64,000 nt of DNA, from assembly GCA_964019135.1 (NCBI GenBank), contig OZ025263.1:32590133-32654132 (forward strand), read 5' to 3'. The notes beneath the pieces were generated by a model, which was not told the DNA's origin, made no database searches, and was given only the letters and a program-made list of their open reading frames with translations. The position numbers and the translations under genes are program-made. This stretch comes from Arenicola marina. Its lineage: Eukaryota; Annelida; Polychaeta; Arenicolidae. The number at the start of each line of letters is the position of its first letter. Position 1 is the first letter of the stretch. Shown here piece by piece: positions 1 through 64,000 of this stretch.

Positions 1-88
1 ACAGTCTCGGAAACCACAAGCACCGGAACCAGTGGGACGACGACAACTCCCACCACTGTCACCCCGACCACCAGTGAGTCCACAACAG
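1..88 (+). CDS. Partial mucin-repeat exon (3' part)
   Basis: The window opens inside an exon, at about residue 25 of the 53-residue repeat. The frame runs through the PTT and TSES motifs to the donor CAG|GTCAGT, with the exon ending at base 88. The 5' part, including its acceptor, lies to the left of the window. It matches the consensus repeat with no amino-acid change in the visible part. Confidence 0.75.
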
Positions 89-3000
89 GTCAGTGATACA
101 ACTTTATCATTTTATGTTTAAAGGAAACGTATTGTCTAGAAGGAAACGGGCGTAGAACAAACTCTAACTTCTTAAACGTCACTTTATAAGCGACATCAGC
201 GATAATATATCGATTCTCAGCAGCTCAAAGTAGGATTGTAAGTCTGTATGCTGATTCTTTTGATAAGCACGTATGGTGCAGCGTTGTATTCTCTTTCCAC
301 CACAGTGGCGAGTACGACTAGCGCAACCAGCGCCAGCACCACTGCGGAGAGCACCACCAGCTTGACAACCCCAACGACAGTCTCGGAAACCACAAGCACC
401 GGAACCAGTGGGACGACGACAACTCCCACCACTGTCACCCCGACCACGAGTGAGTCCACAACAGGTCAGTGATACAACTTTATCATTTTATGTTTAAAGG
501 AAACGTATTGTCTAGAATGAAACGGGCGTAAAATAAACTCTAACTTCTTAAACGTCACTTTATAAGCGACATTGGCGATAATATATCGATTCTCAGCAGC
601 TCAAAGTAGGATTGTAAGTCTGTATGCTGATTCTTTTGATAAGCACGTATGGTGCAGCGTTGTATTCTCATTCCACTATAGTGGCGAGTACGACTAGCGC
701 AACCAGCGCCAGCACCACTGCGGAGAGCACCACCAGCTTGACAACCCCAACGACAGTCTCGGAAACCACAAGCACCGGAACCAGTGGGACGACGACAACT
801 CCCACCACTGTCACCCCGACCACCAGTGAGTCCACAACAGGTCAGTGATACAACTTTATCATTTTATGTTTAAGGGAAACGTATTGTCTAGAAGGAAACG
901 GGCGTAGAACAAACTCTAACTTCTTAAACGTCACTTTATAAGCGACATCAGCGATAATATATCGATTCTCAGCAGCTCAAAGTAGGATTGTAAGTCTGTA
1001 TGCTGATTCTTTTGATAAGCACTATGGTGCAGCGTTGTATTCTCTTTCCACCATAGTGGCGAGTACGACTAGCGCAACCAGCGCCAGCACCACTGCGGAG
1101 AGCACCACCAGCTTGACAACCCCAACGACAGTCTCGGAAACCACAAGCACCGGAACCAGTGGGACGATGACAACTCCCACCACTGTCACCTCGACCACCA
1201 GTGAGTCCACAACAGGTCAGTGATACAACTTTATCATTTTATGTTTAAAGGAAACGTATTGTCTAGAAGGAAACGGGCGTAGAACAAACTCTAACTTCTT
1301 AAACGTCACTTTATAAGCGACATCAGCGATAATATATCGATTCTCAGCAGCTCAAAGTAGGATTGTAAGTCTGTATGCTGATTCTTTTGATAAGCACGTA
1401 TGGTGCAGCGTTGTATTCTCTTTCCACCACAGTGGCGAGTACGACTAGCGCAACCAGCGCCAGCACCACTGCGGAGAGCACCACCAGCTTGACAACCCCA
1501 ACGACAGTCTCGGAAACCACAAGCACCGGAACCAGTGGGACGACGACAACTCCCACCACTGTCACCCCGACCACCAGTGAGTCCACAACAGGTCAGTGAT
1601 ACAACTTTATCATTTTATGTTTAAAGGAAACGTATTGTCTAGAATGAAACGGGCGTAAAATAAACTCTAACTTCTTAAACGTCACTTTATAAGCGACATT
1701 GGCGATAATATATCGATTCTCAGCAGCTCAAAGTAGGATTGTAAGTCTGTATGCTGATTCTTTTGATAAGCACGTATGGTGCAGCGTTGTATTCTCATTC
1801 CACTATAGTGGCGAGTACGACTAGCGCAACCAGCGCCAGCACCACTGCGGAGAGCACCACCAGCTTGACAACCCCAACGACAGTCTCGGAAACCACAAGC
1901 ACCGGAACCAGTGGGACGACGACAACTCCCACCACTGTCACCCCGACCACCAGTGAGTCCACAACAGGTCAGTGATACAACTTTATCATTTTATGTTTAA
2001 AGGAAACGTATTGTCTAGAAGGAAACGGGCGTAGAACAAACTCTAACTTCTTAAACGTCACTTTATAAGCGACATCAGCGATAATATATCGATTCTCAGC
2101 AGCTCAAAGTAGGATTGTAAGTCTGTATGCTGATTCTTTTGATAAGCACTATGGTGCAGCGTTGTATTCTCTTTCCACCATAGTGGCGAGTACGACTAGC
2201 GCAACCAGCGCCAGCACCACTGCGGAGAGCACCACCAGCTTGACAACCCCAACGACAGTCTCGGAAACCACAAGCCCCGGAACCAGTGGGACGACGACAA
2301 CTCCCACCACTGTCACCTCGACCACCAGTGAGTCCACAACAGGTCAGTGATACAACTTTATCATTTTATGTTTAACGGAAACGTATTGTCTAGAAGGAAA
2401 CGGGCGTAAAACAAACTCTAACTTCTTAAACGTCACCTGATAAGCGACATCGGCGATAATATATCGATTCTCAGCAGCTCAAAGTAGGATTGTAAGTCTG
2501 TGTGCTGATTCTTTTGATAAGCACGTATGGTGCAGCGTTGTATTCTCTTTCCACCATAGTGGCGAGTACGACTAGCGCAACCAGCGCCAGCACCACTGCG
2601 GAGAGCACCACCAGCTTGACAACCCCAACGACAGTCTCGGAAACCACAAGCACCGGAACCAGTGGGACGACGACAACTCCCACCACTGTCACCCCGACCA
2701 CCAGTGAGTCCACAACAGGTCAGTGATACAACTTTATCATTTGATGTTTAAAGGAAACGTATTGTCTAGAAGGAAACGGGCGTAAAACTCTAACTTCTTA
2801 AACGTCACTTTATAAGCGACATTGGCGATAATATATCGATTCTCAGCAGCTCAATGTAGGAATATCAGTCTGTATGCTGATTCTTTTGATAAGCACGTAT
2901 GGTGCAGCGTTGTATTCTCTTTCCACCATAGTGGCGAGTACGACTAGCGCAACCAGCGCCAGCACCACTGCGGAGAGCACCACCAGCTTGACAACCCCAA

Positions 3001-6000
3001 CGACAGTCTCGGTAACCACAAGCACCGGAACCAGTGGGACGACGATAACTCCCACCACTGTCACCCCGACCACCAGTGAGTCCACAACAGGTCAGTGATA
3101 CAACTTTATCATTTTATGTTTAAAGGAAACGTATTGTCTAGAATGAAACGGGCGTAAAATAAACTCTAACTTCTTAAACGTCACTTTATAAGCGACATCG
3201 GCGATAATATATCGATTCTCAGCAGCTCAAAGTAGGATTGTAAGTCTGTATGCTGATTCTTTTGATAAGCACGTATGGTGCAGCGTTGTATTCTCTTTCC
3301 ACCATAGTGGCGAGTACGACTAGCGCAACCAGCGCCAGCACCACTGCGGAGAGCACCACCAGCTTGACAACCCCAACGACAGTCTCGGAAACAACAAGCA
3401 CCGGAACCAGTGGGACGACGACAACTCCCACCACTGTCACCCCGACTACCAGTGAGTCCACAACAGGTCAGTGATACAACTTTATCATTTTATGTTTAAA
3501 GGAAACGTATTGTCTAGAAGGAAACGGGCGTAGAACAAACTCTAACTTCTTAAACGTCACTTTATAAGCGACATCAGCGATAATATATCGATTCTCAGCA
3601 GCTCAAAGTAGGATTGTAAGTCTGTATGCTGATTCTTTTGATAAGCACGTATGGTGCAGCGTTGTATTCTCTTTCCACCATAGTGGCGAGTACGACTAGC
3701 GCAACCAGCGCCAGCACCACTGCGGAGAGCACCACCAGCTTGACAACCCCAACGACAGTCTCGGAAACCACAAGCACCGGAACCAGTGGGACGACGACAA
3801 CTCCCACCACTGTCACCCCGACCACCAGTGAGTCCACAACAGGTCAGTGATACAACTTTATCATTTGATGTTTAAAGGAAACGTATTGTCTAGAAGGAAA
3901 CGGGCGTAAAACTCTAACTTCTTAAACGTCACTTTATAAGCGACATTGGCGATAATATATCGATTCTCAGCAGCTCAAAGTAGGATTGTAAGTCTGTATG
4001 CTGATTCTTTTGATAAGCACGTATGGTGCAGCGTTGTATTCTCATTCCACTATAGTGGCGAGTACGACTAGCGCAACCAGCGCCAGCACCACTGCGGAGA
4101 GCACCACCAGCTTGACAACCCCAACGACAGTCTCGGAAACCACAAGCACCGGAACCAGTGGGACGACGACAACTCCCACCACTGTCACCCCGACCACCAG
4201 TGAGTCCACAACAGGTCAGTGATACAACTTTATCATTTGATGTTTAAAGGAAACGTATTGTCTAGAAGGAAACGGGCGTAAAACTCTAACTTCTTAAACG
4301 TCACTTTATAAGCGACATTGGCGATAATATATCGATTCTCAGCAGCTCAATGTAGGAATATCAGTCTGTATGCTGATTCTTTTGATAAGCACGTATGGTG
4401 CAGCGTTGTATTCTCTTTCCACCATAGTGGCGAGTACGACTAGCGCAACCAGCGCCAGCACCACTGCGGAGAGCACCACCAGCTTGACAACCCCAACGAC
4501 AGTCTCGGTAACCACAAGCACCGGAACCAGTGGGACGACGATAACTCCCACCACTGTCACCCCGACCACCAGTGAGTCCACAACAGGTCAGTGATACAAC
4601 TTTATCATTTTATGTTTAAAGGAAACGTATTGTCTAGAATGAAACGGGCGTAAAATAAACTCTAACTTCTTAAACGTCACTTTATAAGCGACATCGGCGA
4701 TAATATATCGATTCTCAGCAGCTCAAAGTAGGATTGTAAGTCTGTATGCTGATTCTTTTGATAAGCACGTATGGTGCAGCGTTGTATTCTCTTTCCACCA
4801 TAGTGGCGAGTACGACTAGCGCAACCAGCGCCAGCACCACTGCGGAGAGCACCACCAGCTTGACAACCCCAACGACAGTCTCGGAAACAACAAGCACCGG
4901 AACCAGTGGGACGACGACAACTCCCACCACTGTCACCCCGACTACCAGTGAGTCCACAACAGGTCAGTGATACAACTTTATCATTTTATGTTTAAAGGAA
5001 ACGTATTGTCTAGAAGGAAACGGGCGTAGAACAAACTCTAACTTCTTAAACGTCACTTTATAAGCGACATCAGCGATAATATATCGATTCTCAGCAGCTC
5101 AAAGTAGGATTGTAAGTCTGTATGCTGATTCTTTTGATAAGCACGTATGGTGCAGCGTTGTATTCTCTTTCCACCATAGTGGCGAGTACGACTAGCGCAA
5201 CCAGCGCCAGCACCACTGCGGAGAGCACCACCAGCTTGACAACCCCAACGACAGTCTCGGAAACCACAAGCACCGGAACCAGTGGGACGACGACAACTCC
5301 CACCACTGTCACCCCGACCACCAGTGAGTCCACAACAGGTCAGTGATACAACTTTATCATTTGATGTTTAAAGGAAACGTATTGTCTAGAAGGAAACGGG
5401 CGTAAAACTCTAACTTCTTAAACGTCACTTTATAAGCGACATTGGCGATAATATATCGATTCTCAGCAGCTCAATGTAGGAATATCAGTCTGTATGCTGA
5501 TTCTTTTGATAAGCACGTATGGTGCAGCGTTGTATTCTCATTCCACTATAGTGGCGAGTACGACTAGCGCAACCAGCGCCAGCACCACTGCGGAGAGCAC
5601 CACCAGCTTGACAACCCCAACGACAGTCTCGGAAACCACAAGCACCGGAACCAGTGGGACGACGACAACTCCCACCACTGTCACCCCGACCACCAGTGAG
5701 TCCACAACAGGTCAGTGATACAACTTTATCATTTTATGTTTAAAGGAAACGTATTGTCTAGAAGGAAACGGGCGTAGAACAAACTCTAACTTCTTAAACG
5801 TCACTTTATAAGCGACATCAGCGATAATATATCGATTCTCAGCAGCTCAAAGTAGGATTGTAAGTCTGTATGCTGATTCTTTTGATAAGCACTATGGTGC
5901 AGCGTTGTATTCTCTTTCCACCATAGTGGCGAGTACGACTAGCGCAACCAGCGCCAGCACCACTGCGGAGAGCACCACCAGCTTGACAACCCCAACGACA

Positions 6001-9000
6001 GTCTCGGAAACCACAAGCACCGGAACCAGTGGGACGACGACAACTCCCACCACTGTCACCTCGACCACCAGTGAGTCCACAACAGGTCAGTGATACAACT
6101 TTATCATTTTATGTTTAACGGAAACGTATTGTCTAGAAGGAAACGGGCGTAAAACAAACTCTAACTTCTTAAACGTCACCTGATAAGCGACATCGGCGAT
6201 AATATATCGATTCTCAGCAGCTCAAAGTAGGATTGTAAGTCTGTGTGCTGATTCTTTTGATAAGCACGTATGGTGCAGCGTTGTATTCTCTTTCCACCAT
6301 AGTGGCGAGTACGACTAGCGCAACCAGCGCCAGCACCACTGCGGAGAGCACCACCAGCTTGACAACCCCAACGACAGTCTCGGAAACCACAAGCACCGGA
6401 ACCAGTGGGACGACGACAACTCCCACCACTGTCACCCCGACCACCAGTGAGTCCACAACAGGTCAGTGATACAACTTTATCATTTGATGTTTAAAGGAAA
6501 CGTATTGTCTAGAAGGAAACGGGCGTAAAACTCTAACTTCTTAAACGTCACTTTATAAGCGACATTGGCGATAATATATCGATTCTCAGCAGCTCAATGT
6601 AGGAATATCAGTCTGTATGCTGATTCTTTTGATAAGCACGTATGGTGCAGCGTTGTATTCTCTTTCCACCATAGTGGCGAGTACGACTAGCGCAACCAGC
6701 GCCAGCACCACTGCGGAGAGCACCACCAGCTTGACAACCCCAACGACAGTCTCGGTAACCACAAGCACCGGAACCAGTGGGACGACGATAACTCCCACCA
6801 CTGTCACCCCGACCACCAGTGAGTCCACAACAGGTCAGTGATACAACTTTATCATTTTATGTTTAAAGGAAACGTATTGTCTAGAATGAAACGGGCGTAA
6901 AATAAACTCTAACTTCTTAAACGTCACTTTATAAGCGACATCGGCGATAATATATCGATTCTCAGCAGCTCAAAGTAGGATTGTAAGTCTGTATGCTGAT
7001 TCTTTTGATAAGCACGTATGGTGCAGCGTTGTATTCTCTTTCCACCATAGTGGCGAGTACGACTAGCGCAACCAGCGCCAGCACCACTGCGGAGAGCACC
7101 ACCAGCTTGACAACCCCAACGACAGTCTCGGAAACAACAAGCACCGGAACCAGTGGGACGACGACAACTCCCACCACTGTCACCCCGACTACCAGTGAGT
7201 CCACAACAGGTCAGTGATACAACTTTATCATTTTATGTTTAAAGGAAACGTATTGTCTAGAAGGAAACGGGCGTAGAACAAACTCTAACTTCTTAAACGT
7301 CACTTTATAAGCGACATCAGCGATAATATATCGATTCTCAGCAGCTCAAAGTAGGATTGTAAGTCTGTATGCTGATTCTTTTGATAAGCACGTATGGTGC
7401 AGCGTTGTATTCTCTTTCCACCATAGTGGCGAGTACGACTAGCGCAACCAGCGCCAGCACCACTGCGGAGAGCACCACCAGCTTGACAACCCCAACGACA
7501 GTCTCGGAAACCACAAGCACCGGAACCAGTGGGACGACGACAACTCCCACCACTGTCACCCCGACCACCAGTGAGTCCACAACAGGTCAGTGATACAACT
7601 TTATCATTTGATGTTTAAAGGAAACGTATTGTCTAGAAGGAAACGGGCGTAAAACTCTAACTTCTTAAACGTCACTTTATAAGCGACATTGGCGATAATA
7701 TATCGATTCTCAGCAGCTCAATGTAGGAATATCAGTCTGTATGCTGATTCTTTTGATAAGCACGTATGGTGCAGCGTTGTATTCTCTTTCCACCATAGTG
7801 GCGAGTACGACTAGCGCAACCAGCGCCAGCACCACTGCGGAGAGCACCACCAGCTTGACAACCCCAACGACAGTCTCGGAAACCACAAGCACCGGAACCA
7901 GTGGGACGACGACAACTCCCACCACTGTCACCCCGACTACCATTGAGTCCACAACAGGTCAGTGATACAACTTTATCATTTTATGTTTAAAGGAAACGTA
8001 TTGTCTAGAATGAAACGGGCGTAAAATAAACTCTAACTTCTCAAACGTCACTTTATAAGCGACATCGGCGATAATATATCGATTCTCAGCAGCTCAAAGT
8101 AGGATTGTAAGTCTGTATGCTGATTCTTTTGATAAGCACGTATGGTGCAGCGTTGTATTCTCTTTCCACCATAGTGGCGAGTACGACTAGCGCAACCAGC
8201 GCCAGCACCACTGCGGAGAGCACCACCAGCTTGACAACCCCAACGACAGTCTCGGAAACCACAAGCACCGGAACCAGTGGGACGACGACAACTCCCACCA
8301 CTGTCACCCCGACCACCAGTGAGTCCACAACAGGTCAGTGATACAACTTTATCATTTGATGTTTAAAGGAAACGTATTGTCTAGAAGGAAACGGGCGTAA
8401 AACTCTAACTTCTTAAACGTCACTTTATAAGCGACATTGGCGATAATATATCGATTCTCAGCAACTCAATGTAGGAATATAAGTCTGTATGCTGATTCTT
8501 TTGATAAGCACGTATGGTGCAGCGTTGTATTCTCTTTCCACCATAGTGGCGAGTACGACTAGCGCAACCAGCGCCAGCACCACTGCGGAGAGCACCACCA
8601 GCTTGACAACCCCAACGACAGTCTCGGAAACCACAAGCACCGGAACCAGTGGGACGACGACAACTCCCACCACTGTCACCCCGACCACCAGTGAGTCCAC
8701 AACAGGTCAGTGATACAACTTTATCATTTTATGTTTAAAGGAAACGTATTGTCTAGAAGGAAACGGGCGTAGAACAAACTCTAACTTCTTAAACGTCACT
8801 TTATAAGCGACATCAGCGACAATATATCGATTCTCAGCAGCTCAAAGTAGGAATGTAAGTCTGTATGCTGATTCTTTTGATAAGCACGTATGGTGGAGCG
8901 TTGTATTCTCTTTCCACCATAGTGGCGAGTACGACTAGCGCAACCAGCGCCAGCACCACTGCGGAGAGCACCACCAGCTTGACAACCCCAACGACAGTCT

Positions 9001-54000: not shown

Positions 54001-57000
54001 ACCAGTGGGAGGACGACAACTCCCACCACTGTCACCCCGACCACCAGTGAGTCCACAACAGGTCAGTGATACAACTTGATCATTTTATGTGTAAAGGAAA
54101 CGTATTGTCTAGAATGAAACGGGCGTAAAACAAACGCTAACTTCTTAAACGTCACTTTATAAGCGACATTGGCGGTAATATATCGATTCTCAGCAGCTCA
54201 ATGTAGGAATGTAAGTCTGTATGCTGATTCTTTTGATAAGCACGTATGGTGCAGCGTTGTATTCTCTTTCCACCATAGTGGCGAGTACGACTAGCGCAAC
54301 CAGCGCCAGCACCACTGCGGAGAGCACCACCAGCTTGACAACCCCAACGACAGTCTCGGAAACCACAAGCACCGGAACCAGTGGGACGACGACAACTCCC
54401 ACCACTGTCACCCCGACCACCAGTGAGTCCACAACAGGTCAGTGATACAACTTTATCATTTTATGTTTAAAGGAAACGTATTGTCTAGAAGGAAACGGGC
54501 GTAAAACAAACGCTAACTTCTTAAACGTCACTTTATAAGCGACACTGGCGATAATATATCGATTCTCAGCAGCTCAATGTAGGAATGTAAGTCTGTATGC
54601 TGATTCTTTTGATAAGCACGTATGGTGCAGCGTTGTATTCTCTTTCCACCCTAGTGGCGAGTACGACTAGCGCAACCAGCGCCAGCACCACTGCGGAGAG
54701 CACCACCAGCTTGACAACCCCAACGACAGTCTCGGAAACCACAAGCACCGGAACCAGTGGGACGACGACAACTCCCACCACTGTCACTCCGACCACCAGT
54801 GAGTCCACAACAGGTCAGTGATACAACTTTATCATTTTATGTTTAAAGGAAACGTATTATCTAGAAGGAAACGGGCGTAGAACAAACTCTACCTTCTTAA
54901 ACGTCACTTTATAAGCGACATCAGCGATAATATATCGATTCTCAGCAGCTCAAAGTAGGATTGTAAGTCTGTAGGCTGATTTTTTTATAAGCACGTATGG
55001 TGCAGCGTTGTATTCTCTTTCCACCATAGTGGCGAGTACGACTAGCGCAACCAGCGCCACCTCCACTGCGGAGAGCACCACCAGCTTGACAACCCCAACG
55101 ACAGACTCGGAAACCACAAGCACCGGAACCAGTGGGACGACGACAACTCCCACCACTGTCACCCCGACCACAACTGAGTCGACAACAGGTCAGTGATACA
55201 ATTTTATCATTTTATGTTTAAAGGAAACGTATTGTCTAGAAGGAAACGGGCGTAAAACTCTAACTTCTTAAACGTCACTTTATAAGCGACATCGGCGATA
55301 ATATATCGATTCCCAACAGATCAAAGTAGGATTGTAAGTCTGTATGCTGATTCTTTTGTTAAGCACGTATGGTGCAGCGTTGTATTCTCTTTCCACCATA
55401 GTGGCGAGTACGACTAGCGCAACCAGCGCCAGCACCACTGCGGCGAGCACCACCAGCTTGACAACCCCAACGACAGTCTCGGAAACCACAAGCACCGGAA
55501 CCAGTGGGACGACGACAACTCCCACCACTGTCACCCCGACCACCAGTGAGTCCACAACAGGTCAGTGATACAACTTTATCATTTTATGTTTAAAGGAAAC
55601 GTATTGTCTAGAATGAAACGGGCGTAAAACAAACGCTAACTTCTTAAAGGTCACTTTATAAGCGACATCGGCGATAATATATCGATTCTCAGCAGCTCAA
55701 AGTAGGATTGTAAGTCTGTATGCTGATTCTTTTGATAAGCACGTATGGTGCAGCGTTGTATTCTCTTTCCACCATAGTGGCGAGTACGACTAGCGCAACC
55801 AGCGCCAGCACCACTGCGGAGAGCACCACCAGCTTGACAACCCCAACGACAGTCTCGGAAACCACAAGCACCGGAACCAGTGGGACGACGACAACTCCCA
55901 CCACTGTCACCCCGACCACCAGTGAGTCCACAACAGGTCAGTGATACAACTTTATCATTTCATGTTTAAGGGAAACGTATTGTCTAGAATGAAACGGGCG
56001 TAAAACAAACGCTAACTTCTTAAACGTCACTTTATAAGCGACATTGGCGGTAATATATCGATTCTCAGCAGCTCAATGTAGGGATGTAAGTCTGTATGCT
56101 GATTCTTTTGATAAGCACGTATGGTGCAGCGTTGTATTCTCTTTCCACCATAGTGGCGAGTACGACTAGCGCAACCAGCGCCAGCACCACTGCGGAGAGC
56201 ACCACCAGCTTGACAACCCCAACGACAGTCTCGGAAACCACAAGCACCGGAACCAGTGGCACGACGACAACTCCCACCACTGTCACCCCGACCACCAGTG
56301 AGTCCACAACAGGTCAGTGATACAACTTTATCATTTTATGTGTAAAGGAAACGTATTATCTAGAATGAAACGGGCGTAAAACAAACGCTAACTTCTTAAA
56401 CGTCACTTTGTCAGCGACATTGGCGCTAATATATCGATTCTCAGCAGCTCAATGTAGGAATGTAAGTCTGTATGCTGATTCTTTTGATAAGCACGTATGG
56501 TGCAGCGTTGTATTCTCTTTCCACCATAGTGGCGAGTACGACTAGCGCAACCAGCGCCAGCACCACTGCGGAGAGCACCACCAGCTTGACAACCCCAACG
56601 ACAGTCTCGGAAACCACAAGCACCGGAACCAGTGGGACGACGACAACTCCCACCACTGTCACCCCGACCACCACTGAGTCGACAACAGGTCAGTGATACA
56701 ATTTTATCATTTTATGTTTAAAGGAAACGTATTGTCTAGAAGGAAACGGGCGTAAATCTCTAACTTCTTAAACGTCACTTTATAAGCGACATCGGCGATA
56801 ATATATCGATTCCCAACAGATCAAAGTAGGATTGTAAGTCTGTATGCTGATTCTTTTGTTAAGCACGTATGGTGCAGCGTTGTATTCTCTTTCCACCATA
56901 GTGGCGAGTACGATTAGCGCAACCAGCGCCAGCACCACTGCGGCGAGCACCACCAGCTTGACAACCCCAACGACAGTCTCGGAAACCACAAGCACCGGAA

Positions 57001-60000
57001 CCAGTGGGACGACGACAACTCCCACCACTGTCACCCCGACCACCAGTGAGTCCACAACAGGTCAGTGATACAACTTTATCATTTTATGTTTAAAGGAAAC
57101 GTATTGTCTAGAATGAAACGGGCGTAAAACAAACGCTAACTTATTAAAGGTCACTTTATAAGCGACATCGGCGATAATATATCGATTCTCAGCAGCTCAA
57201 AGTAGGATTGTAAGTCTGTATGCTGATTCTTTTGATAAGCACGTATGGTGCAGCGTTGTATTCTCTTTCCACCATAGTGGCGAGTACGACTAGCGCAACC
57301 AGCGCCAGCACCACTGCGGAGAGCACCACCAGCTTGACAACCCCAACGACAGTCTCGGAAACCACAAGCACCGGAACCAGTGGGACGACGACAACTCCCA
57401 CCACTGTCACCCCGACCACCAGTGAGTCCACAACAGGTCAGTGATACAACTTTATCATTTTATGTTTAAGGGAAACGTATTGTCTAGAATGAAACGGGCG
57501 TAAAACAAACGCTAACTTCTTAAACGTCACTTTATAAGCGACATTGGCGGTAATATATCGATTCTCAGCAGCTCAATGTAGGGATGTAAGTCTGTATGCT
57601 GATTCTTTTGATAAGCACGTATGGTGCAGCGTTGTATTCTCTTTCCACCATAGTGGCGAGTACGACTAGCGCAACCAGCGCCAGCACCACTGCGGAGAGC
57701 ACCACCAGCTTGACAACCCCAACGACAGTCTCGGAAACCACAAGCACCGGAACCAGTGGGACGACGACAACTCCCACCACTGTCACCCCGACCACCAGTG
57801 AGTCCACAACAGGTCAGTGATACAACTTGATCATTTTATGTGTAAAGGAAACGTATTGTCTAGAATGAAACGGGCGTAAAACAAACGCTAACTTCTTAAA
57901 CGTCACTTTATAAGCGACATTGGCGGTAATATATCGATTCTCAGCAGCTCAATGTAGGAATGTAAGTCTGTATGCTGATTCTTTTGATAAGCACGTATGG
58001 TGCAGCGTTGTATTCTCTTTCCACCATAGTGGCGAGTACGACTAGCGCAACCAGCGCCAGCACCACTGCGGAGAGCACCACCAGCTTGACAACCCCAACG
58101 ACAGTCTCGGAAACCACAAGCACCGGAACCAGTGGGACGACGACAACTCCCACCACTGTCACCCCGACCACCAGTGAGTCCACAACAGGTCAGTGATACA
58201 ACTTCATCATTTTATGTTTAAAGGAAACGTATTGTCTAGAATGAAACCGGCGTAAAACAAACGCTAACTTCTTAAACGTCACTTTATAAGCGACATCGGC
58301 GATAATATATCGATTCTCAGCAGCTCAAAGTAGGATTGTAAGTCTGTATGCTGATTCTTTTGATAAGCACGTATGGTGCAGCGTTGTATTCTCTTTCCAC
58401 CATAGTGGCGAGTACGACTAGCGCAACCAGCGCCAGCACCACTGCGGAGAGCACCACCAGCTTGACAACCCCAACGACAGTCTCGGAAACCACAAGCACC
58501 GGAACCAGTGGGACGACGGCAACTCCCACCACTGTCACCCCGACCACCAGTGAGTCCACAACAGGTCAGTGATACAACTTGATCATTTTATGTTTAAAGG
58601 AAACGTATTGTCTAGAAGGAAACGGGCGTAAACTTCTTAAACGTCACTTTATAAGCGACACTGGCGATAATATATTGATTCTCAGCAGCTCAATGTAGGA
58701 ATGTAAGTCTGTATGCTGATTCTTTTGATAAGCACGTATGGTGCAGCGTTGTATTCTCTTTCCACCCTAGTGGCGAGTACGACTAGCGCAACCAGCGCCA
58801 GCACCACTGCGGAGAGCACCACCAGCTTGACAACCCCAACGACACTCTCGGAAACCACAAGCACCGGAACCAGTGGGACGACGAGAACTCCCACCACTGT
58901 CACTCCGACCACCAGTGAGTCCACAACAGGTCAGTGATACAACTTTATCATTTTATGTTTAAAGGAAACGTATTATCTAGAAGGAAACGGGCGTAGAACA
59001 AACTCTACCTTCTTAAACGTCACTTTATAAGCGACATCAGCGATAATATATCGATTCTCAGCAGCTCAAAGTAGGACTGTAAGTCTGTATGCTGATTTTT
59101 TTATAAGCACGTATGGTGCAGCGTTGTATTCTCTTTCCACCATAGTGGCGAGTACGACTAGCGCAACCAGCGCCCCCTCCACTGCGGAGAGCACCACCAG
59201 CTTGACAACCCCAACGACAGACTCGGAAACCACAAGCACCGGAACCAGTGGGACGACGACAACTCCCACCACTGTCACCCCGACCACCACTGAGTCGACA
59301 ACAGGTCAGTGATACAATTTTATCATTTTATGTTTAAAGGAAACGTTTTGTCTAGAAGGAAACGGGCGTAAAACTCTAACTTCTTAAACGTCACTTTATA
59401 AGCGACATCGGCGATAATATATCGATTCCCAACAGATCAAAGTAGGATTGTAAGTCTGTATGCTGATTCTTTTGTTAAGCACGTATGGTGCAGCGTTGTA
59501 TTCTCTTTCCACCATAGTGGCGAGTACGACTAGCGCAACCAGCGCCAGCACCACTGCGGCGAGCACCACCAGCTTGACAACCCCAACGACAGTCTCGGAA
59601 ACCACAAGCACCGGAACCAGTGGGACGACGACAACTCCCACCACTGTCACCCCGACCACCAGTGAGTCCACAACAGGTCAGTGATACAACTTAATCATTT
59701 TATGTTTAAAGGAAACGTATTGTCTAGAATGAAACGGGCGTAAAACAAACGCTAACTTCTTAAAGGTCACTTTATAAGCGACATCGGCGATAATATATCG
59801 ATTCTCAGCAGCTCAAAGTAGGATTGTAAGTCTGTATGCTGATTCTTTTGATAAGCACGTATGGTGCAGCGTTGTATTCTCTTTCCACCATAGTGGCGAG
59901 TACGACTAGCGCAACCAGCGCCAGCACCACTGCGGAGAGCACCACTAGCTTGACAACCCCAACGACAGTCTCGGAAACCACAAGCACCGGAACCAGTGGG

Positions 60001-63000
60001 ACGACGACAACTCCCACCACTGTCACCCCGACCACCAGTGAGTCCACAACAGGTCAGTGATACAACTTTATCATTTTATGTGTAAAGGAAACGTATTGTC
60101 TAGAATGAAACGGGCGTAAAACAAACGCTAACTTCTTAAACGTCACTTTATAAGCGACATTGGCGGTAATATATCGATTCTCAGCAGCTCAATGTAGGAA
60201 TGTAAGTCTGTATGCTGATTCTTTTGATAAGCACGTATGGTGCAGCGTTGTATTCTCTTTCCACCATAGTGGCGAGTACGACTAGCGCAACCAGCGCCAG
60301 CACCACTGCGGAGAGCACCACCAGCTTGACAACCCCAACGACAGTCTCGGAAACCACAAGCACCGGAACCAGTGGGACGACGACAACTCCCACCACTGTC
60401 ACCCCGACCACCAGTGAGTCCACAACAGGTCAGTGATACAACTTCATCATTTTATGTTTAAAGGAAACGTATTGTCTAGAATGAAACGGGCGTAAAACAA
60501 ACGATAACTTCTTAAAGGTCACTTTATAAGCGACATCGGCGATAATATATCGATTCTCAGCAGCTCAAAGTAGGATTGTAAGTCTGTATGCTGATTCTTT
60601 TGATAAGCACGTATGGTGCAGCGTTGTATTCTCTTTCCACCATAGTGGCGAGTACGACTAGCGCAACCAGCGCCAGCACCACTGCGGAGAGCACCACCAG
60701 CTTGACAACCCCAACGACAGTCTCGGAAACCACAAGCACCGGAACCAGTGGGACGACGGCAACTCCCACCACTGTCACCCCGACCACCAGTGAGTCCACA
60801 ACAGGTCAGTGATACAACTTTATCATTTTATGTTTAAAGGAAACGTATTGTCTAGAAGGAAACGGGCGTAAAACTCTAACTTCTTAAACGTCACTTTATA
60901 AGCGACACTGGCGATAATATATCGATTCTCAGCAGCTCAATGTAGGAATGTAAGTCTGTATGCTGATTCTTTTGATAAGCACGTATGGTGCAGCGTTGTA
61001 TTCTCTTTCCACCCTAGTGGCGAGTACGACTAGCGCCACCAGCGCCAGCACCACTGCGGAGAGCACCACCAGCTTGACAACCCCAACGACAGTCTCGGAA
61101 ACCACAAGCACCGGAACCAGTGGGACGACGACAACTCCCACCACTGTCACTCCGACCACCAGTGAGTCCACAACAGGTCAGTGATACAACTTTATCATTT
61201 TATGTTTAAAGGAAACGTATTATCTAGAAGGAAACGGGCGTAGAACAAACTCTACCTTCTTAAACGTCACTTTATAAGCGACATTGGCGGTAATATATCG
61301 ATTCTCAGCAGCTCAATGTAGGGATGTAAGTCTGTATGCTGATTCTTTTGATAAGCACGTATGGTGCAGCGTTGTATTCTCTTTCCACCATAGTGGCGAG
61401 TACGACTAGCGCAACCAGCGCCAGCACCACTGCGGAGAGCACCACCAGCTTGACAACCCCAACGACAGTCTCGGAAACCACAAGCACCGGAACCAGTGGG
61501 ACGACGGCAACTCCCACCACTGTCACCCCGACCACCAGTGAGTCCACAACAGGTCAGTGATACAACTTTATCATTTTATGTTTAAGGGAAACGTATTGTC
61601 TAGAATGAAACGGGCGTAAAATAAACTCTAACTTCTTAAACGTCACTTTATTAGCGACATCGGCGATAATATATCGATTCTCAGCAGCGCAAAGTAGGAT
61701 TGTAAGTCAGTATGCTGATTCTTTTGATAAGCACGTATGGTGCAGCGTTGTATTCTCTTTCCACCATAGTGGCGAGTACGACTAGCGCAACCAGCGCCAG
61801 CACCACTGCGGAGAGCACCACCAGCTTGACAACCCCAACGACAATCTCGGAAACCACAAGCACCGGAACCAGTGGGAGGACGACAACTCCCACCACTGTC
61901 ACCCCGACCACCAGTGAGTCCACAACAGGTCAGTGATACAACTTGATCATTTTATGTGTAAAGGAAACGTATTGTCTAGAATGAAACGGGCGTAAAACAA
62001 ACGCTAACTTCTTAAACGTCACTTTATAAGCGACATTGGCGGTAATATATCGATTCTCAGCAGCTCAATGTAGGAATGTAAGTCTGTATGCTGATTCTTT
62101 TGATAAGCACGTATGGTGCAGCGTTGTATTCTCTTTCCACCATAGTGGCGAGTACGACTAGCGCAACCAGCGCCAGCACCACTGCGGAGAGCACCACCAG
62201 CTTGACAACCCCAACGACAGTCTCGGAAACCACAAGCACCGGAACCAGTGGGACGACGACAACTCCCACCACTGTCACCCCGACCACCAGTGAGTCCACA
62301 ACAGGTCAGTGATACAACTTTATCATTTTATGTTTAAAGGAAACGTATTGTCTAGAAGGAAACGGGCGTAAAACAAACGCTAACTTCTTAAACGTCACTT
62401 TATAAGCGACACTGGCGATAATATATCGATTCTCAGCAGCTCAATGTAGGAATGTAAGTCTGTATGCTGATTCTTTTGATAAGCACGTATGGTGCAGCGT
62501 TGTATTCTCTTTCCACCCTAGTGGCGAGTACGACTAGCGCAACCAGCGCCAGCACCACTGCGGAGAGCACCACCAGCTTGACAACCCCAACGACAGTCTC
62601 GGAAACCACAAGCACCGGAACCAGTGGGACGACGACAACTCCCACCACTGTCACTCCGACCACCAGTGAGTCCACAACAGGTCAGTGATACAACTTTATC
62701 ATTTTATGTTTAAAGGAAACGTATTATCTAGAAGGAAACGGGCGTAGAACAAACTCTACCTTCTTAAACGTCACTTTATAAGCGACATCAGCGATAATAT
62801 ATCGATTCTCAGCAGCTCAAAGTAGGATTGTAAGTCTGTAGGCTGATTTTTTTATAAGCACGTATGGTGCAGCGTTGTATTCTCTTTCCACCATAGTGGC
62901 GAGTACGACTAGCGCAACCAGCGCCACCTCCACTGCGGAGAGCACCACCAGCTTGACAACCCCAACGACAGACTCGGAAACCACAAGCACCGGAACCAGT

Positions 63001-64000
63001 GGGACGACGACAACTCCCACCACTGTCACCCCGACCACAACTGAGTCGACAACAGGTCAGTGATACAATTTTATCATTTTATGTTTAAAGGAAACGTATT
63101 GTCTAGAAGGAAACGGGCGTAAAACTCTAACTTCTTAAACGTCACTTTATAAGCGACATCGGCGATAATATATCGATTCCCAACAGATCAAAGTAGGATT
63201 GTAAGTCTGTATGCTGATTCTTTTGTTAAGCACGTATGGTGCAGCGTTGTATTCTCTTTCCACCATAGTGGCGAGTACGACTAGCGCAACCAGCGCCAGC
63301 ACCACTGCGGCGAGCACCACCAGCTTGACAACCCCAACGACAGTCTCGGAAACCACAAGCACCGGAACCAGTGGGACGACGACAACTCCCACCACTGTCA
63401 CCCCGACCACCAGTGAGTCCACAACAGGTCAGTGATACAACTTTATCATTTTATGTTTAAAGGAAACGTATTGTCTAGAATGAAACGGGCGTAAAACAAA
63501 CGCTAACTTCTTAAAGGTCACTTTATAAGCGACATCGGCGATAATATATCGATTCTCAGCAGCTCAAAGTAGGATTGTAAGTCTGTATGCTGATTCTTTT
63601 GATAAGCACGTATGGTGCAGCGTTGTATTCTCTTTCCACCATAGTGGCGAGTACGACTAGCGCAACCAGCGCCAGCACCACTGCGGAGAGCACCACCAGC
63701 TTGACAACCCCAACGACAGTCTCGGAAACCACAAGCACCGGAACCAGTGGGACGACGACAACTCCCACCACTGTCACCCCGACCACCAGTGAGTCCACAA
63801 CAGGTCAGTGATACAACTTTATCATTTCATGTTTAAGGGAAACGTATTGTCTAGAATGAAACGGGCGTAAAACAAACGCTAACTTCTTAAACGTCACTTT
63901 ATAAGCGACATTGGCGGTAATATATCGATTCTCAGCAGCTCAATGTAGGGATGTAAGTCTGTATGCTGATTCTTTTGATAAGCACGTATGGTGCAGCGTT
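1..64000 (+). CDS. Interior of a giant mucin-like (Thr/Ser-rich) gene made of about 171 repeated exons; both ends lie outside the window
   Basis: Seen: 170 complete 159-nt exons and one partial exon, in one orientation, separated by short introns. Each exon runs from just after an invariant AG to just before GTCAGT. It stays open in one frame in every copy. The split codon G|TG at each junction gives Val, so all introns are phase 1 and all exons are class 1-1. The protein would be about 9,000 residues in this window, about 70% Ser+Thr, acidic, without Cys and nearly without Lys or Arg. Known: such PTS domains in secreted or membrane mucins are O-glycosylated in the Golgi by GalNAc-transferases and form extended gel or coat polymers. 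Inferred: this is the central glycosylated domain. The signal peptide and any cysteine-rich, VWD or transmembrane ends must lie outside. Alternatives are another extended O-glycosylated protein such as a silk, glue or cuticle protein, or an expanded non-coding satellite derived from one mucin exon. Orthology cannot be assigned. Confidence 0.7.
248..305 (+). promoter_or_regulatory. Representative 3' splice site: branch candidate, pyrimidine tract and AG
   Basis: A CTGAT branch-like motif (251-255) lies about 50 nt before the acceptor. A pyrimidine-rich run ending CTCTTTCCAC precedes the AG at 304-305. Across the array the base before the AG varies (CACAG at exons 1 and 4, AAAG at 17545, CTAG at 35141 and elsewhere, TATAG in most), yet the AG itself is present in every copy I checked. 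An earlier AG (GTGCAG at about 275-280) would add 24 nt in frame, but a copy at 11521 has TAG in that stretch and several copies carry 1-bp deletions just upstream, so the later AG is preferred. Confidence 0.7.
306..464 (+). CDS. Representative complete mucin-repeat exon (exon 1), 53 codons, phase 1-1
   Basis: This exon carries the consensus repeat. Residue 1 is the Val whose codon is split across the intron (G|TG). Residues 1-20 form an Ala/Ser/Thr stretch. Residues 21-26 are TTPTTV, followed by Ser27-Glu28. A Gly-containing turn occupies residues 31-36 (STGTSG). TTPTTV recurs at 39-44, and TSESTT ends the exon. Glu 15, 28 and 50 are the only charged residues. Thr 26 and Ser 11 of 53 provide many O-glycosylation acceptors. 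There is no Asn and therefore no N-glycosylation sequon. The exon was bounded by the AG at 304-305 and the GT at 465-466. Variants elsewhere are described with these residue numbers. Confidence 0.78.
306..6461 (+). CDS. Mucin-repeat exons 1-17 (17 exons of 159 nt)
   Basis: Exon starts: 306, 682, 1057, 1433, 1809, 2184, 2560, 2932, 3308, 3684, 4056, 4428, 4804, 5180, 5552, 5927, 6303. Most encode the consensus. Differences: T38M and P46S at 1057; T32P and P46S at 2184; P46S at 5927; E28V with T39I at 2932 and 4428. Exons at 682, 1809, 4056 and 5552 share an altered acceptor tract (CATTCCACTATAG). Before 1057, 2184 and 5927 one base is missing about 35 nt upstream of the exon (GCACTATGG in place of GCACGTATGG), a frameshift that would matter only if that stretch were coding. 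The segment is built from 3- and 4-unit blocks. Confidence 0.72.
462..472 (+). promoter_or_regulatory. Representative 5' splice site CAG|GTCAGT with an in-frame TGA just inside the intron
   Basis: The donor is a good match to the metazoan consensus except for C at +3. Rare alleles are GTTTGT (exons at 20905, 22033, 22409, 25785, 27661, 28789, 29165), GTTAGT (exons at 23161, 23537, 24285) and GTCAAT (exon at 14913). All of them keep GT. The exon frame continues Gly-Gln-stop (or Gly-Leu-stop, or Gly-stop), so an unspliced transcript terminates within nine bases of every exon. A second in-frame GTGAGT lies 15 nt upstream (450-455) in most units. Confidence 0.7.
465..681 (+). other. Representative intron, 217 nt, phase 1
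   Basis: The intron is AT-rich with three landmarks shared by nearly all copies: an early TTTATCATTTTATG block, a TCTAGAA(T/G)GAAACGGGCG block, and a late GATAATATATCGATTCTC block before the pyrimidine tract. Two main haplotypes differ at TCTAGAATG against TCTAGAAGG, and they sort with CAAAC, ATAAAC or shortened variants. Length classes across the array are 217, 213, 216, 215, 206 and 188 nt. Stops occur in all three frames. I see no RNA gene or other coding sequence within it. Confidence 0.7.
1968..7585 (+). repeat. 3,743-bp offset duplication enclosing the 1,496-bp repeat
   Basis: Exons at 2184, 2560, 2932, 3308 and 3684 correspond to 5927, 6303, 6675, 7051 and 7427, each 3,743 bp further on. 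Shared rare markers are P46S with the one-base intron deletion, the GTGTGCTGATT variant just after each (about 2500 and 6243), and the E28V/T39I exon. Correspondence ends after 7585, where the following unit has S49I in place of the CATTCC acceptor. Confidence 0.75.
2719..5710 (+). repeat. 1,496-bp higher-order repeat (4 units), two copies
   Basis: Copies 2719-4214 and 4215-5710 share unit lengths 372, 376, 376 and 372 and the E28V/T39I exon at the head of each. The last unit of each copy carries the CATTCCACTATAG acceptor. The tail intron differs slightly (CAAAGTAGGATTG against CAATGTAGGAATA), so the exchange point or a later conversion lies in the last unit. Confidence 0.8.
6675..12823 (+). 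CDS. Mucin-repeat exons 18-34 (17 exons)
   Basis: Exon starts: 6675, 7051, 7427, 7799, 8175, 8547, 8923, 9299, 9673, 10049, 10421, 10797, 11173, 11545, 11917, 12289, 12665. Differences: E28V/T39I at 6675 (the same allele as 2932 and 4428); S49I at 7799, which also destroys the upstream GTGAGT; S11G and V44F at 9299; A10D and T45I at 9673; T4A and V44I at 10797; A7V, T40I and V44T at 12289. The exon at 11545 is fully open, but the preceding 24 nt contain an in-frame TAG, which helps place the acceptor. The introns here are a mixture of 217 and 213 nt, with one of 215 before 9673. Confidence 0.72.
7958..12075 (+). repeat. 1,874-bp higher-order repeat (5 units) and a partial third copy
   Basis: Exons at 8175, 8547 and 8923 correspond to 10049, 10421 and 10797, an offset of 1,874 bp. 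The pairing is fixed by CAACTCAATG in the 213-nt introns and by GTGGAGCG in place of GTGCAGCG upstream of 8923 and 10797. The 213-nt unit then recurs twice more in a row (11545, 11917). Confidence 0.75.
13041..19954 (+). CDS. Mucin-repeat exons 35-53 (19 exons)
   Basis: Exon starts: 13041, 13417, 13793, 14169, 14541, 14913, 15289, 15665, 16041, 16417, 16793, 17169, 17545, 17921, 18297, 18673, 19045, 19421, 19796. A basic-residue allele (A7V, E15K, T40I, V44T) recurs at 13417, 14913 and 16041. The exon at 17169 has G36E and T48S. The exon at 17545 has S9G and T43N, and T43N creates Asn-Val-Thr. The exon at 18673 has T21A and T39A; 19421 has T13S and E50D. The exon at 14913 has the weakest normal donor, GTCAAT. 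Introns in front of 13793, 15289 and 16417 have a TTATC change in the pyrimidine tract. Confidence 0.72.
13200..16951 (+). repeat. 1,128-bp trimer repeat (three marked unit types)
   Basis: Three unit types cycle: the E15K/T40I/V44T exon (13417, 14913, 16041), a unit with TTATC in its pyrimidine tract (13793, 15289, 16417), and a unit with CAGCGCAAAG and GTCAGTATG in its intron (14169, 15665, 16793). The last two cycles are exactly 1,128 bp apart. A 213-nt-intron unit is inserted between the first and second. Confidence 0.75.
20172..20312 (+). CDS. Mucin-repeat exon 54 with lost normal donor; probable end at the upstream GTGAGT
   Basis: The acceptor AG (20170-20171) and the reading frame are normal, but the exon differs in two ways. 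It has an in-frame 3-bp loss in the Gly-Thr-Thr run after residue 36. It also has a net loss of 16 bp across the usual exon end, which removes CAG|GTCAGT. The GTGAGT present 15 nt upstream in most units survives here at 20313-20318 and would end a 141-nt, 47-codon exon that is still phase 1-1. Without it the frame would read on to a TAA in the intron. Skipping this exon would also keep frame. The 3' end given is an inference from the motif. Confidence 0.5.
20529..29699 (+). CDS. Mucin-repeat exons 55-79 (25 exons)
   Basis: Exon starts: 20529, 20905, 21281, 21657, 22033, 22409, 22785, 23161, 23537, 23909, 24285, 24657, 25033, 25409, 25785, 26161, 26537, 26913, 27285, 27661, 28037, 28413, 28789, 29165, 29541. 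This segment holds nearly all the non-standard donors: GTTTGT after 20905, 22033, 22409, 25785, 27661, 28789 and 29165; GTTAGT after 23161, 23537 and 24285. The T21A/T39A allele occurs at 21657, 23537 (also P46Q), 24285 and 26913. Others: T53K at 20905, S3T at 21281, T13S at 25033, P41L at 27661, G36R at 28037. Synonymous Pro and Thr third-base changes (CCT, ACT) mark one subfamily from about 17.9 kb onward. Confidence 0.72.
29700..29887 (+). other. Shortest intron in the array (188 nt)
   Basis: This intron lacks 29 bp between the GGGCGTAAAACAA block and the GCGACATTGG block, removing the CTAAC and TTCTTAAACG stretch found in all other units. Donor, late AT-rich block, CTGAT branch candidate, pyrimidine tract and AG remain. 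The CTAAC motif, itself a good branch-point match, is therefore dispensable if this exon is spliced, which favours the CTGAT nearer the acceptor. Confidence 0.65.
29888..34934 (+). CDS. Mucin-repeat exons 80-93 (14 exons)
   Basis: Exon starts: 29888, 30264, 30640, 31016, 31392, 31768, 32144, 32520, 32896, 33272, 33648, 34024, 34400, 34776. The most varied stretch: A7V/E15K/T40I at 29888 and 32520; S49T at 30264; G36E/T48S at 30640; S9G, E15Q and T43N (a second Asn-Val-Thr) at 31016; A7P, P46R and S49I at 31392; T48S at 33272 and 33648 (the latter also E28D); T18A and T34I at 34024; S19T and T39A at 34776. Exons 30640 and 31016 form the same ordered pair as 17169 and 17545, 13,471 bp away. Confidence 0.72.
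35050..38800 (+). repeat. 1,875-bp higher-order repeat (5 units), two copies
   Basis: The second copy begins about 36925. Exons 35141, 35516, 35888, 36264 and 36640 match 37016, 37391, 37763, 38139 and 38515, all offset by 1,875 bp. Markers in order: CCCTAG acceptor, V26D exon with the T-tract deletion, E15A exon, consensus, T39A exon. The intron before the first copy is 206 nt and before the second 217 nt, so the junction falls late in that intron. Confidence 0.82.
35141..41297 (+). CDS. Mucin-repeat exons 94-110 (17 exons)
   Basis: Exon starts: 35141, 35516, 35888, 36264, 36640, 37016, 37391, 37763, 38139, 38515, 38891, 39267, 39639, 40011, 40387, 40763, 41139. A distinct allele (S11T, T12S, V26D, S49T) appears at 35516, 37391 and 39639. 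Its CTGAGT in place of GTGAGT removes the alternative donor. The next exon in each case (35888, 37763, 40011) carries E15A, so the two alleles travel as a pair. T39A occurs at 36640 and 38515; E28A at 35141; P46S at 40011. Upstream of 35516 and 37391 a T-rich 1-bp deletion (GATTTTTTTATAAG) breaks the frame ahead of the acceptor, consistent with intron. Confidence 0.72.
41515..49945 (+). CDS. Mucin-repeat exons 111-133 (23 exons)
   Basis: Exon starts: 41515, 41891, 42267, 42643, 43019, 43395, 43771, 44147, 44523, 44899, 45275, 45651, 46027, 46403, 46779, 47155, 47531, 47907, 48283, 48659, 49035, 49411, 49787. G36E/T48S at 41891 and 48659; T39A at 43771 and 46403; E50K at 44147 and 46779, which turns the alternative donor into the stronger-looking GTAAGT; T13S at 44899 and 47531; S35G at 49035; S19R at 49411; T5A at 49787. 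All introns here are 217 nt, so exon spacing is a uniform 376 bp, making the 7-unit and 18-unit periods exact multiples. Confidence 0.72.
42802..48065 (+). repeat. 2,632-bp higher-order repeat (7 units), two copies
   Basis: Copies 42802-45433 and 45434-48065 pair exons 43019-45275 with 45651-47907. Markers include GAAACTAGCG at the head, GAAACCGGCG before the T39A exon, GTATAGTCTAG, the E50K exon and the T13S exon preceded by CACAGCAGCTCAAATTAGG. Only a few single-base differences are visible. Confidence 0.85.
50163..57812 (+). CDS. Mucin-repeat exons 134-154 (21 exons), first copy of the 7,867-bp block
   Basis: Exon starts: 50163, 50539, 50904, 51279, 51651, 52027, 52403, 52779, 53151, 53527, 53903, 54279, 54655, 55030, 55402, 55778, 56154, 56530, 56902, 57278, 57654. 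T39A at 50539, 52779 and 53527; V26L with T39R at 50904; S11P/T12S/V26D/S49T at 51279; S11T/T12S/V26D/S49T at 55030; E15A at 51651, 55402 and 56902 (56902 also T5I); V26I with T37R at 53903. The exon at 56530 is chimeric: consensus up to about residue 48, then the S49T end with its TCGACA codons. The acceptor reads CCCTAG before 50904, 53151 and 54655. Confidence 0.72.
58030..63803 (+). CDS. Mucin-repeat exons 155-170 (16 exons), second copy of the 7,867-bp block
   Basis: Exon starts: 58030, 58406, 58771, 59146, 59518, 59894, 60270, 60646, 61018, 61394, 61770, 62146, 62522, 62897, 63269, 63645. They repeat exons 134-149 one for one, including rare alleles: V26L/T39R (58771), S11P/T12S (59146), E15A (59518, 63269), V26I/T37R (61770) and the CCCTAG acceptors (58771, 61018, 62522). 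Intron lengths repeat in the same order, including the 206-nt intron before 58771. Only isolated base differences are visible, for example ACGATAAC near 60500 against ACGCTAAC near 52635. Confidence 0.72.
63804..64000 (+). other. Partial intron at the right edge
   Basis: The last exon ends at 63803 and the window stops 197 nt into the following intron, about 20 nt short of the next acceptor. It carries the ATTTCATG variant and GTTTAAGGG, the same as the intron starting at 55937, and continues the 7,867-bp repeat without a break. The array therefore goes on past the window. Confidence 0.75.

Follow-up and report, generated by a model that had tools for sequence, protein, structure and literature searches.

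A giant tandem array in Arenicola marina as the probable repeat-coding core of a mucin-type gene with one symmetric exon per repeat

The window analysed here, 64,000 nt of the genome of the polychaete Arenicola marina, is a single uninterrupted head-to-tail array (one TRF row, positions 1-64000) and is probably the central repeat-coding part of a giant mucin-type (PTS) gene in which every repeat has its own symmetric phase-1 exon. According to the mechanism that we propose, each 376-bp unit would combine a symmetric phase-1 exon of 159 nt, which codes for 53 residues with about 69% Ser/Thr and no Cys, with an intron of about 217 nt, splicing would join the exons into a Thr/Ser-rich extended polymer, presumably heavily O-glycosylated, and unequal exchange or conversion, acting on multi-unit blocks, would lengthen the array and keep it uniform. 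Exons may be added, lost or skipped in frame because each of them starts and ends in the same phase. Both ends of the array fall beyond the window edges, and the 64 kb hold repeats only, with no gene end among them; the non-repeat ends of the putative gene would therefore lie outside.

Results

Array layout and unit segmentation

The preliminary description, made from the sequence alone, had proposed an array of near-identical units of about 376 bp across the whole window, and both TRF and segmentation bear this out (Table 1). Segmentation was cut at the exon start and gave 170 exon starts, delimiting 169 complete units: 125 of 376 bp, 28 of 372 bp, 10 of 375 bp and six of other lengths. Together with one partial exon, the 170 complete exons bring the tally to 171. 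The predicted introns are most frequently 217 or 213 nt long, and the sequence is consistent with the exon boundaries first placed at 464/682 and 840/1057. Pairwise identity between units averages 96.2% with a minimum of 82.7%, and distinct sequences number 130 among the 169 units, 59 among the 169 exons and 116 among the 169 introns.

Table 1. Coordinates of the main features in the window.
Feature	Position	Strand	Details
Tandem array, about 171 units	1-64000	+	TRF: period 376, 170.8 copies, 95% matches; segmentation
Partial first exon (3' part)	1-88	+	First 5' splice site directly after base 88
First complete exon	306-464	+	159 nt, 53 residues, phase 1 at both ends (G/TG ... ACA ACA G)
Exon-end segment between alternative in-frame GTGAGT and main 5' site	450-464	+	15 nt
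First complete intron	465-681	+	217 nt, GTCAGT ... TATAG
Segment between alternative in-frame TGCAG and main 3' site TATAG	658-681	+	24 nt
Block duplication, units 5-9 (1809-3683) = units 15-19 (5552-7426)	1809-7426	+	4/5 unit pairs identical
Aberrant unit 54	20172-20528	+	357 bp; 3-nt exon gap and 16-nt gap across exon end and main 5' site; GTGAGT retained
Unit 79	29541-29887	+	347 bp; 29-nt intron deletion, intact exon
Weaker block duplications, units 109-116 with 127-134 and 114-121 with 121-128	40763-50538	+	Mean identity 99.5% and 99.7%, respectively
Block duplication, units 133-148 (49787-55777) = units 154-169 (57654-63644)	49787-63644	+	14/16 unit pairs identical
Last complete exon	63645-63803	+	

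Length, frame and composition of the predicted exon

An exon length of 159 nt was found in 168 of the 169 aligned units and again in the last exon, that is in 169 of the 170 complete exons, unit 54 being the sole exception. The original proposal of a 159-nt exon open in a single frame in all copies thus stands for every complete exon but this one. When the 168 ungapped exons were joined without unit 54, they translated into 8,904 residues with zero stops; with unit 54 inserted as it stands, the frame was lost and 113 stops appeared in 8,953 codons. In the consensus exon the other two forward frames contain stops. The 53-residue repeat occurs in 42 protein versions among the 168 ungapped exons, the commonest of which is used 91 times.

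Read in phase 1, these 168 exons code for 69.3% Ser+Thr, in line with the first estimate of about 70%, with 5.6% Pro and no Cys. This composition exceeds the thresholds given for mucin-type (PTS-repeat) proteins in the passages cited from PMC2515642 (Ser+Thr of at least 20-25%, Pro of about 5%). The same passages further call for four or more tandem repeats that fill a third or more of the protein (PMC2515642); 171 repeats were counted in the window, beyond which the predicted protein would extend.

Dinucleotide shuffles of the unit (n=1,500) never produced a symmetric open AG..GT stretch with at least 60% Ser+Thr, the highest value being 51%, and Ser+Thr peaked at 43% in exon-only shuffles (n=3,000). 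Symmetric open stretches as such are easily obtained: 97.6% of the 1,500 shuffled units contain at least one AG..GT stretch of this kind of 100 nt or more, and in the real unit 24 such combinations of at least 102 nt lie on the plus strand; the minus strand has 23 symmetric open stretches, the best of them with 21% Ser+Thr. Among the 71 distinct exon alleles new stops number 0 in the sense frame, 4 and 3 in the other forward frames, and 8, 0 and 1 in the three frames of the opposite strand. Just 0.4-1.3 stop alleles would be expected by chance in the sense frame, and the consensus exon (e.g. 306-464) also has two open frames out of three on the antisense strand, one Val/Leu-rich and the other Gly/Cys/Arg-rich; the openness of the sense frame is for these reasons weak evidence, and the notion of an exon "open in one frame" is valid among the forward frames but not when both strands are considered. 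The frame is thus beyond chance as a Ser/Thr-rich reading and not as mere openness, and no other evidence speaks as strongly for a descent of the unit from a mucin-type exon as this Ser/Thr richness. On the antisense strand the dinucleotides flanking the 159-nt stretch are AC and CT instead of AG and GT, and an antisense coding reading, having no positive sign, was put aside.

Predicted splice sites and alternative exon ends

The main 3' splice AG is kept in 169/169 units and the main 5' splice GT in 168/169, so that the AG and GT flanks initially reported for all exons hold everywhere except at the 5' site of unit 54. Intact AG and GT are by themselves weak evidence, because conservation is just as high at other AG and GT pairs of the unit. 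The predicted 5' site reads CAG/GTCAGT, with GTCAGTG in 157 of the 169 units; 11 of the 168 surviving sites differ from it (seven GTTTGTG, three GTTAGTG and one GTCAATG) and one site is lost. Upstream of the 3' site lies a pyrimidine-rich stretch, TTCTCTTTCCACC, present in exact form in 158/169 units, and branch-like motifs are found as TGCTGAT in 165/169 and as TTTTGAT in 143/169 units. The GTCAGT-type 5' site, the TATAG 3' site and the branch motifs were judged against the general splice-site and branch consensus.

The 24 plus-strand combinations show that the exon ends are not unique, and we rate one in-frame alternative highest for each end. The GT of a GTGAGT located 15 nt upstream of the main 5' site is intact in 158/169 units and lost in 11, and none of the 169 units, unit 54 included, has lost both GTs. 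Similarly, the AG of a TGCAG located 24 nt upstream of the main 3' site is intact in 168/169 units; the corresponding extension (658-681 and its equivalents), which would add the residues ALYSLSTI, is gap-free in all 169 units and carries a stop in one of them. The exon ends of the preliminary description are the most likely ones, but other in-frame ends exist.

Variation among copies in exon and intron

Variable columns are fewer in the exon (61/159) than in the intron (125/217; Fisher p=0.0003), and the lower variability of the exon also holds against the intron core for G/C columns (p=0.017) and A/T columns (p=2e-5) taken separately. Within the intron, the tail carrying the pyrimidine tract and the branch-like motifs is less variable than the core (26/60 versus 96/149, p=0.008). 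Four-fold sites of the exon are likewise less variable than the intron core (16/40 versus 96/149, p=0.007) and show no difference from the other exon sites (16/40 versus 45/119, p=0.85). Since four-fold sites vary like the remaining exon, protein constraint alone does not explain the low variability of the exon, to which splicing signals or local homogenisation may contribute as well. The first 100 exon columns have 29 variable positions against 32 in the remaining 59, and in these last columns (101-159) variability is not significantly below that of the intron core (32/59, p=0.21). Variability is lowest in a block of the unit that comprises columns 337-376 and 1-100 (e.g. 642-781), that is the intron tail and the first ~100 nt of the exon; four-fold sites within this block vary no more freely than its other sites.

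The ratio of nonsynonymous to synonymous changes (N:S) was evaluated as a possible sign of coding. Among the 71 distinct exon alleles it amounts to 52:19, against expectations of 49.9:20.3 under the intron spectrum and 49.7:20.8 under the exon's own spectrum; this neutral ratio does not show coding, and purifying selection on amino-acid identity was not seen in this set of alleles. Third codon positions are not the most variable ones. Changes that lose Ser or Thr were observed 22 times for 28.6-30.6 expected (P = 0.014, 0.054, 0.029 and 0.045 under four null models), a mild shortage that fits a protein whose composition, and not its sequence, matters.

Gaps distinguish exon and intron further. 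The intron shows seven distinct gap runs of 4, 1, 1, 11, 2, 1 and 29 nt, none of them divisible by three: columns 226-229 are missing in 28 units, column 333 in six, column 342 in three and columns 226-236 in three, and columns 233-234, 230 and 230-258 are missing in one unit each. In the 169 aligned units the exon is touched by two gaps (3 nt and 16 nt), both in unit 54. These observations of constant exon length beside a gapped intron, together with a composition beyond that of the shuffles, support the earlier proposal of symmetric phase-1 mucin-like exons. The intron gaps cluster at unit columns 226-258.

CpG dinucleotides show no depletion (observed/expected = 1.01), and transitions affect CpG sites (11 of 42) no more often than other C/G sites (42 of 136), which together suggests a genome without heavy CpG methylation, as in an invertebrate or protist and unlike that of a heavily methylated vertebrate.

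Block duplications and array turnover

Duplications of multi-unit blocks can be read directly from the sequence (Table 1). The longest involves a 16-unit block that recurs at an offset of 21 units. Run lengths of the four duplications are 16, 8, 8 and 5 units, and the longest run obtained after shuffling the order of the units was 4, reached in 8 of 200 shuffles. Variants are also mixed between units: all four combinations, each present in at least two units, were found for 34 of the 66 pairs formed by 12 hand-picked frequent columns. Such mixing is as expected from exchange or conversion, and repeated mutation could contribute to it. Identity to the consensus follows no clear trend along the array, the first 17-unit block standing at 98.4% and the other nine at 97.4-98.0%. 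The growth or shrinkage in whole units by recombination that had been predicted is thus supported by duplications within the array, and the length of the array may vary between individuals today.

Searches for related sequences and RNA structure

Comparison of the repeat protein with two sequence collections returned 463 pattern stretches in viral_contigs and 592 in genome_contigs, none of which was confirmed, and 0 matches were obtained with an exon 20-mer in genome_contigs or with an intron 21-mer in viral_contigs. These misses say little about eukaryotes, because both collections are viral, bacterial and archaeal. Gel-forming and transmembrane mucin families are recognised by conserved domains outside the repeats, such as VWD, cystine-knot or SEA. 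When three repeat copies were joined and scanned against Pfam, a single match was obtained, with an E value of 0.93, below the cut-off, and an Rfam scan of positions 1-20000 gave no family. The predicted RNA fold of one unit has a z score of 0.19, and 64 of 100 shuffles fold as well; a structured-RNA reading was rejected since the unit is no more stable than its shuffles.

Discussion

The composition of the single Ser/Thr-rich frame, the constant exon length and the duplication of whole units argue for the repeat-coding core of a giant mucin-type gene. Transcription of the array and splicing at the predicted sites would yield a product that is presumably secreted and O-glycosylated; the single polymer of over 9,000 residues that had been envisaged requires all exons to be in one transcript. 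We also entertain a bolder version, for which we would claim only a modest chance: one gene with well over 171 near-identical and freely skippable exons, each end of which has a backup splice site in frame, might give rise to a ladder of mucin polymers, the length of which would depend on unequal exchange in the germ line as well as on the number of identical exons that the spliceosome includes. Under this version splicing, and not protein sequence, would be the reason why the least variable DNA block is maintained.

The main competing explanation, which we consider unlikely, is that the array derives from a mucin exon and is now silent or mostly skipped, having been amplified like a satellite beyond expression and kept uniform by recombination only. 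The neutral N:S ratio would follow naturally, as would a variability lowered alike at four-fold and other exon sites, a diversity minimum that covers the intron tail and the first part of the exon instead of the exact exon, the loss of the main 5' site in one unit and a copy number far exceeding that reported for SmPoMuc (see below). Against it speak an exon that is gap-free in the other 168 aligned units next to an intron in which gaps are common, and the mild retention of Ser/Thr. Going further, one could take the array for ordinary satellite DNA in which a frame happens to be open. A length of 376 bp corresponds to about two nucleosome repeats, a period that satellites can have, the head-to-tail, uninterrupted, homogenised and block-duplicated structure is satellite-like, and symmetric open AG..GT stretches are common by chance, as illustrated by 97.6% of the shuffles and by the 23 examples on the minus strand. 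However, no shuffle attains the Ser/Thr richness of the forward frame and the exon is spared by gaps, which leaves this explanation very improbable. A non-coding satellite is expected to have no coding frame beyond chance; what we found is a single Ser/Thr-rich forward frame beyond the shuffles and a constant exon length, the N:S ratio being neutral though.

It is also conceivable that the array does code for a mucin but with other or multiple exon ends, using 144-nt exons that stop at GTGAGT and/or 183-nt exons that start after TGCAG; a unit would then code for 48, 53, 56 or 61 residues. The frame is preserved at either alternative site, both are largely intact (GT in 158/169, AG in 168/169), and every one of the 169 units retains one or both GTs. 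Losses, on the other hand, fall on the upstream GT in 11 units versus one for the main GT, the 24-nt extension is interrupted by a stop in 1/169 units, and TGCAG appears by eye to have no preceding pyrimidine tract, so that we regard these ends as a rather improbable substitute for the main ones.

Provided that it is expressed, the mucin-type gene that we favour would be exceptionally rich in exons and an extreme example in nature of mucin coding with one exon per repeat. Such a gene would put to the test how more than 170 exons and introns, all nearly identical, are processed in order by the spliceosome, and whether DNA recombination, splicing or both set the length of the polymer. The array is, in addition, a sequence where exon constraint and homogenisation might be separated. 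Short-read assemblies are likely to lose or collapse arrays of this kind.

VNTR mucins have tandem Ser/Thr-rich repeats in variable number. Single-exon members of this group share these features with the Arenicola marina array, but have them within one exon. Frog integumentary mucins may have per-repeat exons. For a frog glue protein, excerpts of PMC11237159 describe exon duplication of a domain and do not mention one exon per mucin repeat. The preliminary description had set the array apart from mucins whose PTS domains are coded by one very large exon; this agrees with the abstract of the mucin pangenome paper, where the repeats of single-exon VNTR mucins lie in one large exon (PMC13345508), but does not extend to MUC16 or to SmPoMuc of Schistosoma mansoni. 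The contrast was too strong because SmPoMuc, in the excerpts of PMC2576457, already codes each repeat as its own exon in a tandem exon-intron unit. Human MUC16/CA125 is similarly a giant mucin coded by repeated small exons, but differs in that its 156-residue repeat, present in at least 60 partially conserved copies, is spread over five exons and includes a SEA domain (excerpts of PMC3431878).

The closest likeness is to the exon-2 region of SmPoMuc, which is mucin-like and has one small exon per tandem unit with near-identical introns. The same architecture, a symmetric exon per tandem unit separated by near-identical introns, was found here at the DNA level and with predicted exon ends. In the excerpts of PMC2576457, a 27-bp exon lies in a tandem unit of about 1 kb that is more than 93% identical between copies, up to about 20 genomic copies and up to 100 repeats in transcripts are described, the repeat number differs between individuals, the units hold microsatellites and an intronic hammerhead ribozyme is found in SmPoMuc genes. 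The Arenicola marina array, with a 159-nt exon in a 376-bp unit and at least 171 copies against at most about 20, is likened to it by architecture and not by homology.

Spider Flag and Argiope MaSp2 genes offer a second parallel, with iterated exons, homogenised near-identical introns and a giant repetitive protein that is secreted in silk; their successive introns are nearly identical according to the excerpted text of PMC1885213, and spider silk introns are described as more homogenised than the exons in that of PMC2576457. Unlike these genes, the Arenicola marina array has a PTS and not a silk composition, and its exon, not its intron, is the less variable part. In the Coccidioides SOWgp gene, repeated exons and introns are nearly identical and unequal crossing-over has been shown (PMC2576457, excerpts); this fungal wall glycoprotein is likened to the array by description only. 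No mucin array with at least 171 such exons was seen among the open-licence papers searched. The design therefore has precedents, SmPoMuc, Flag silk and SOWgp being similar, and it is the copy number that is extreme.
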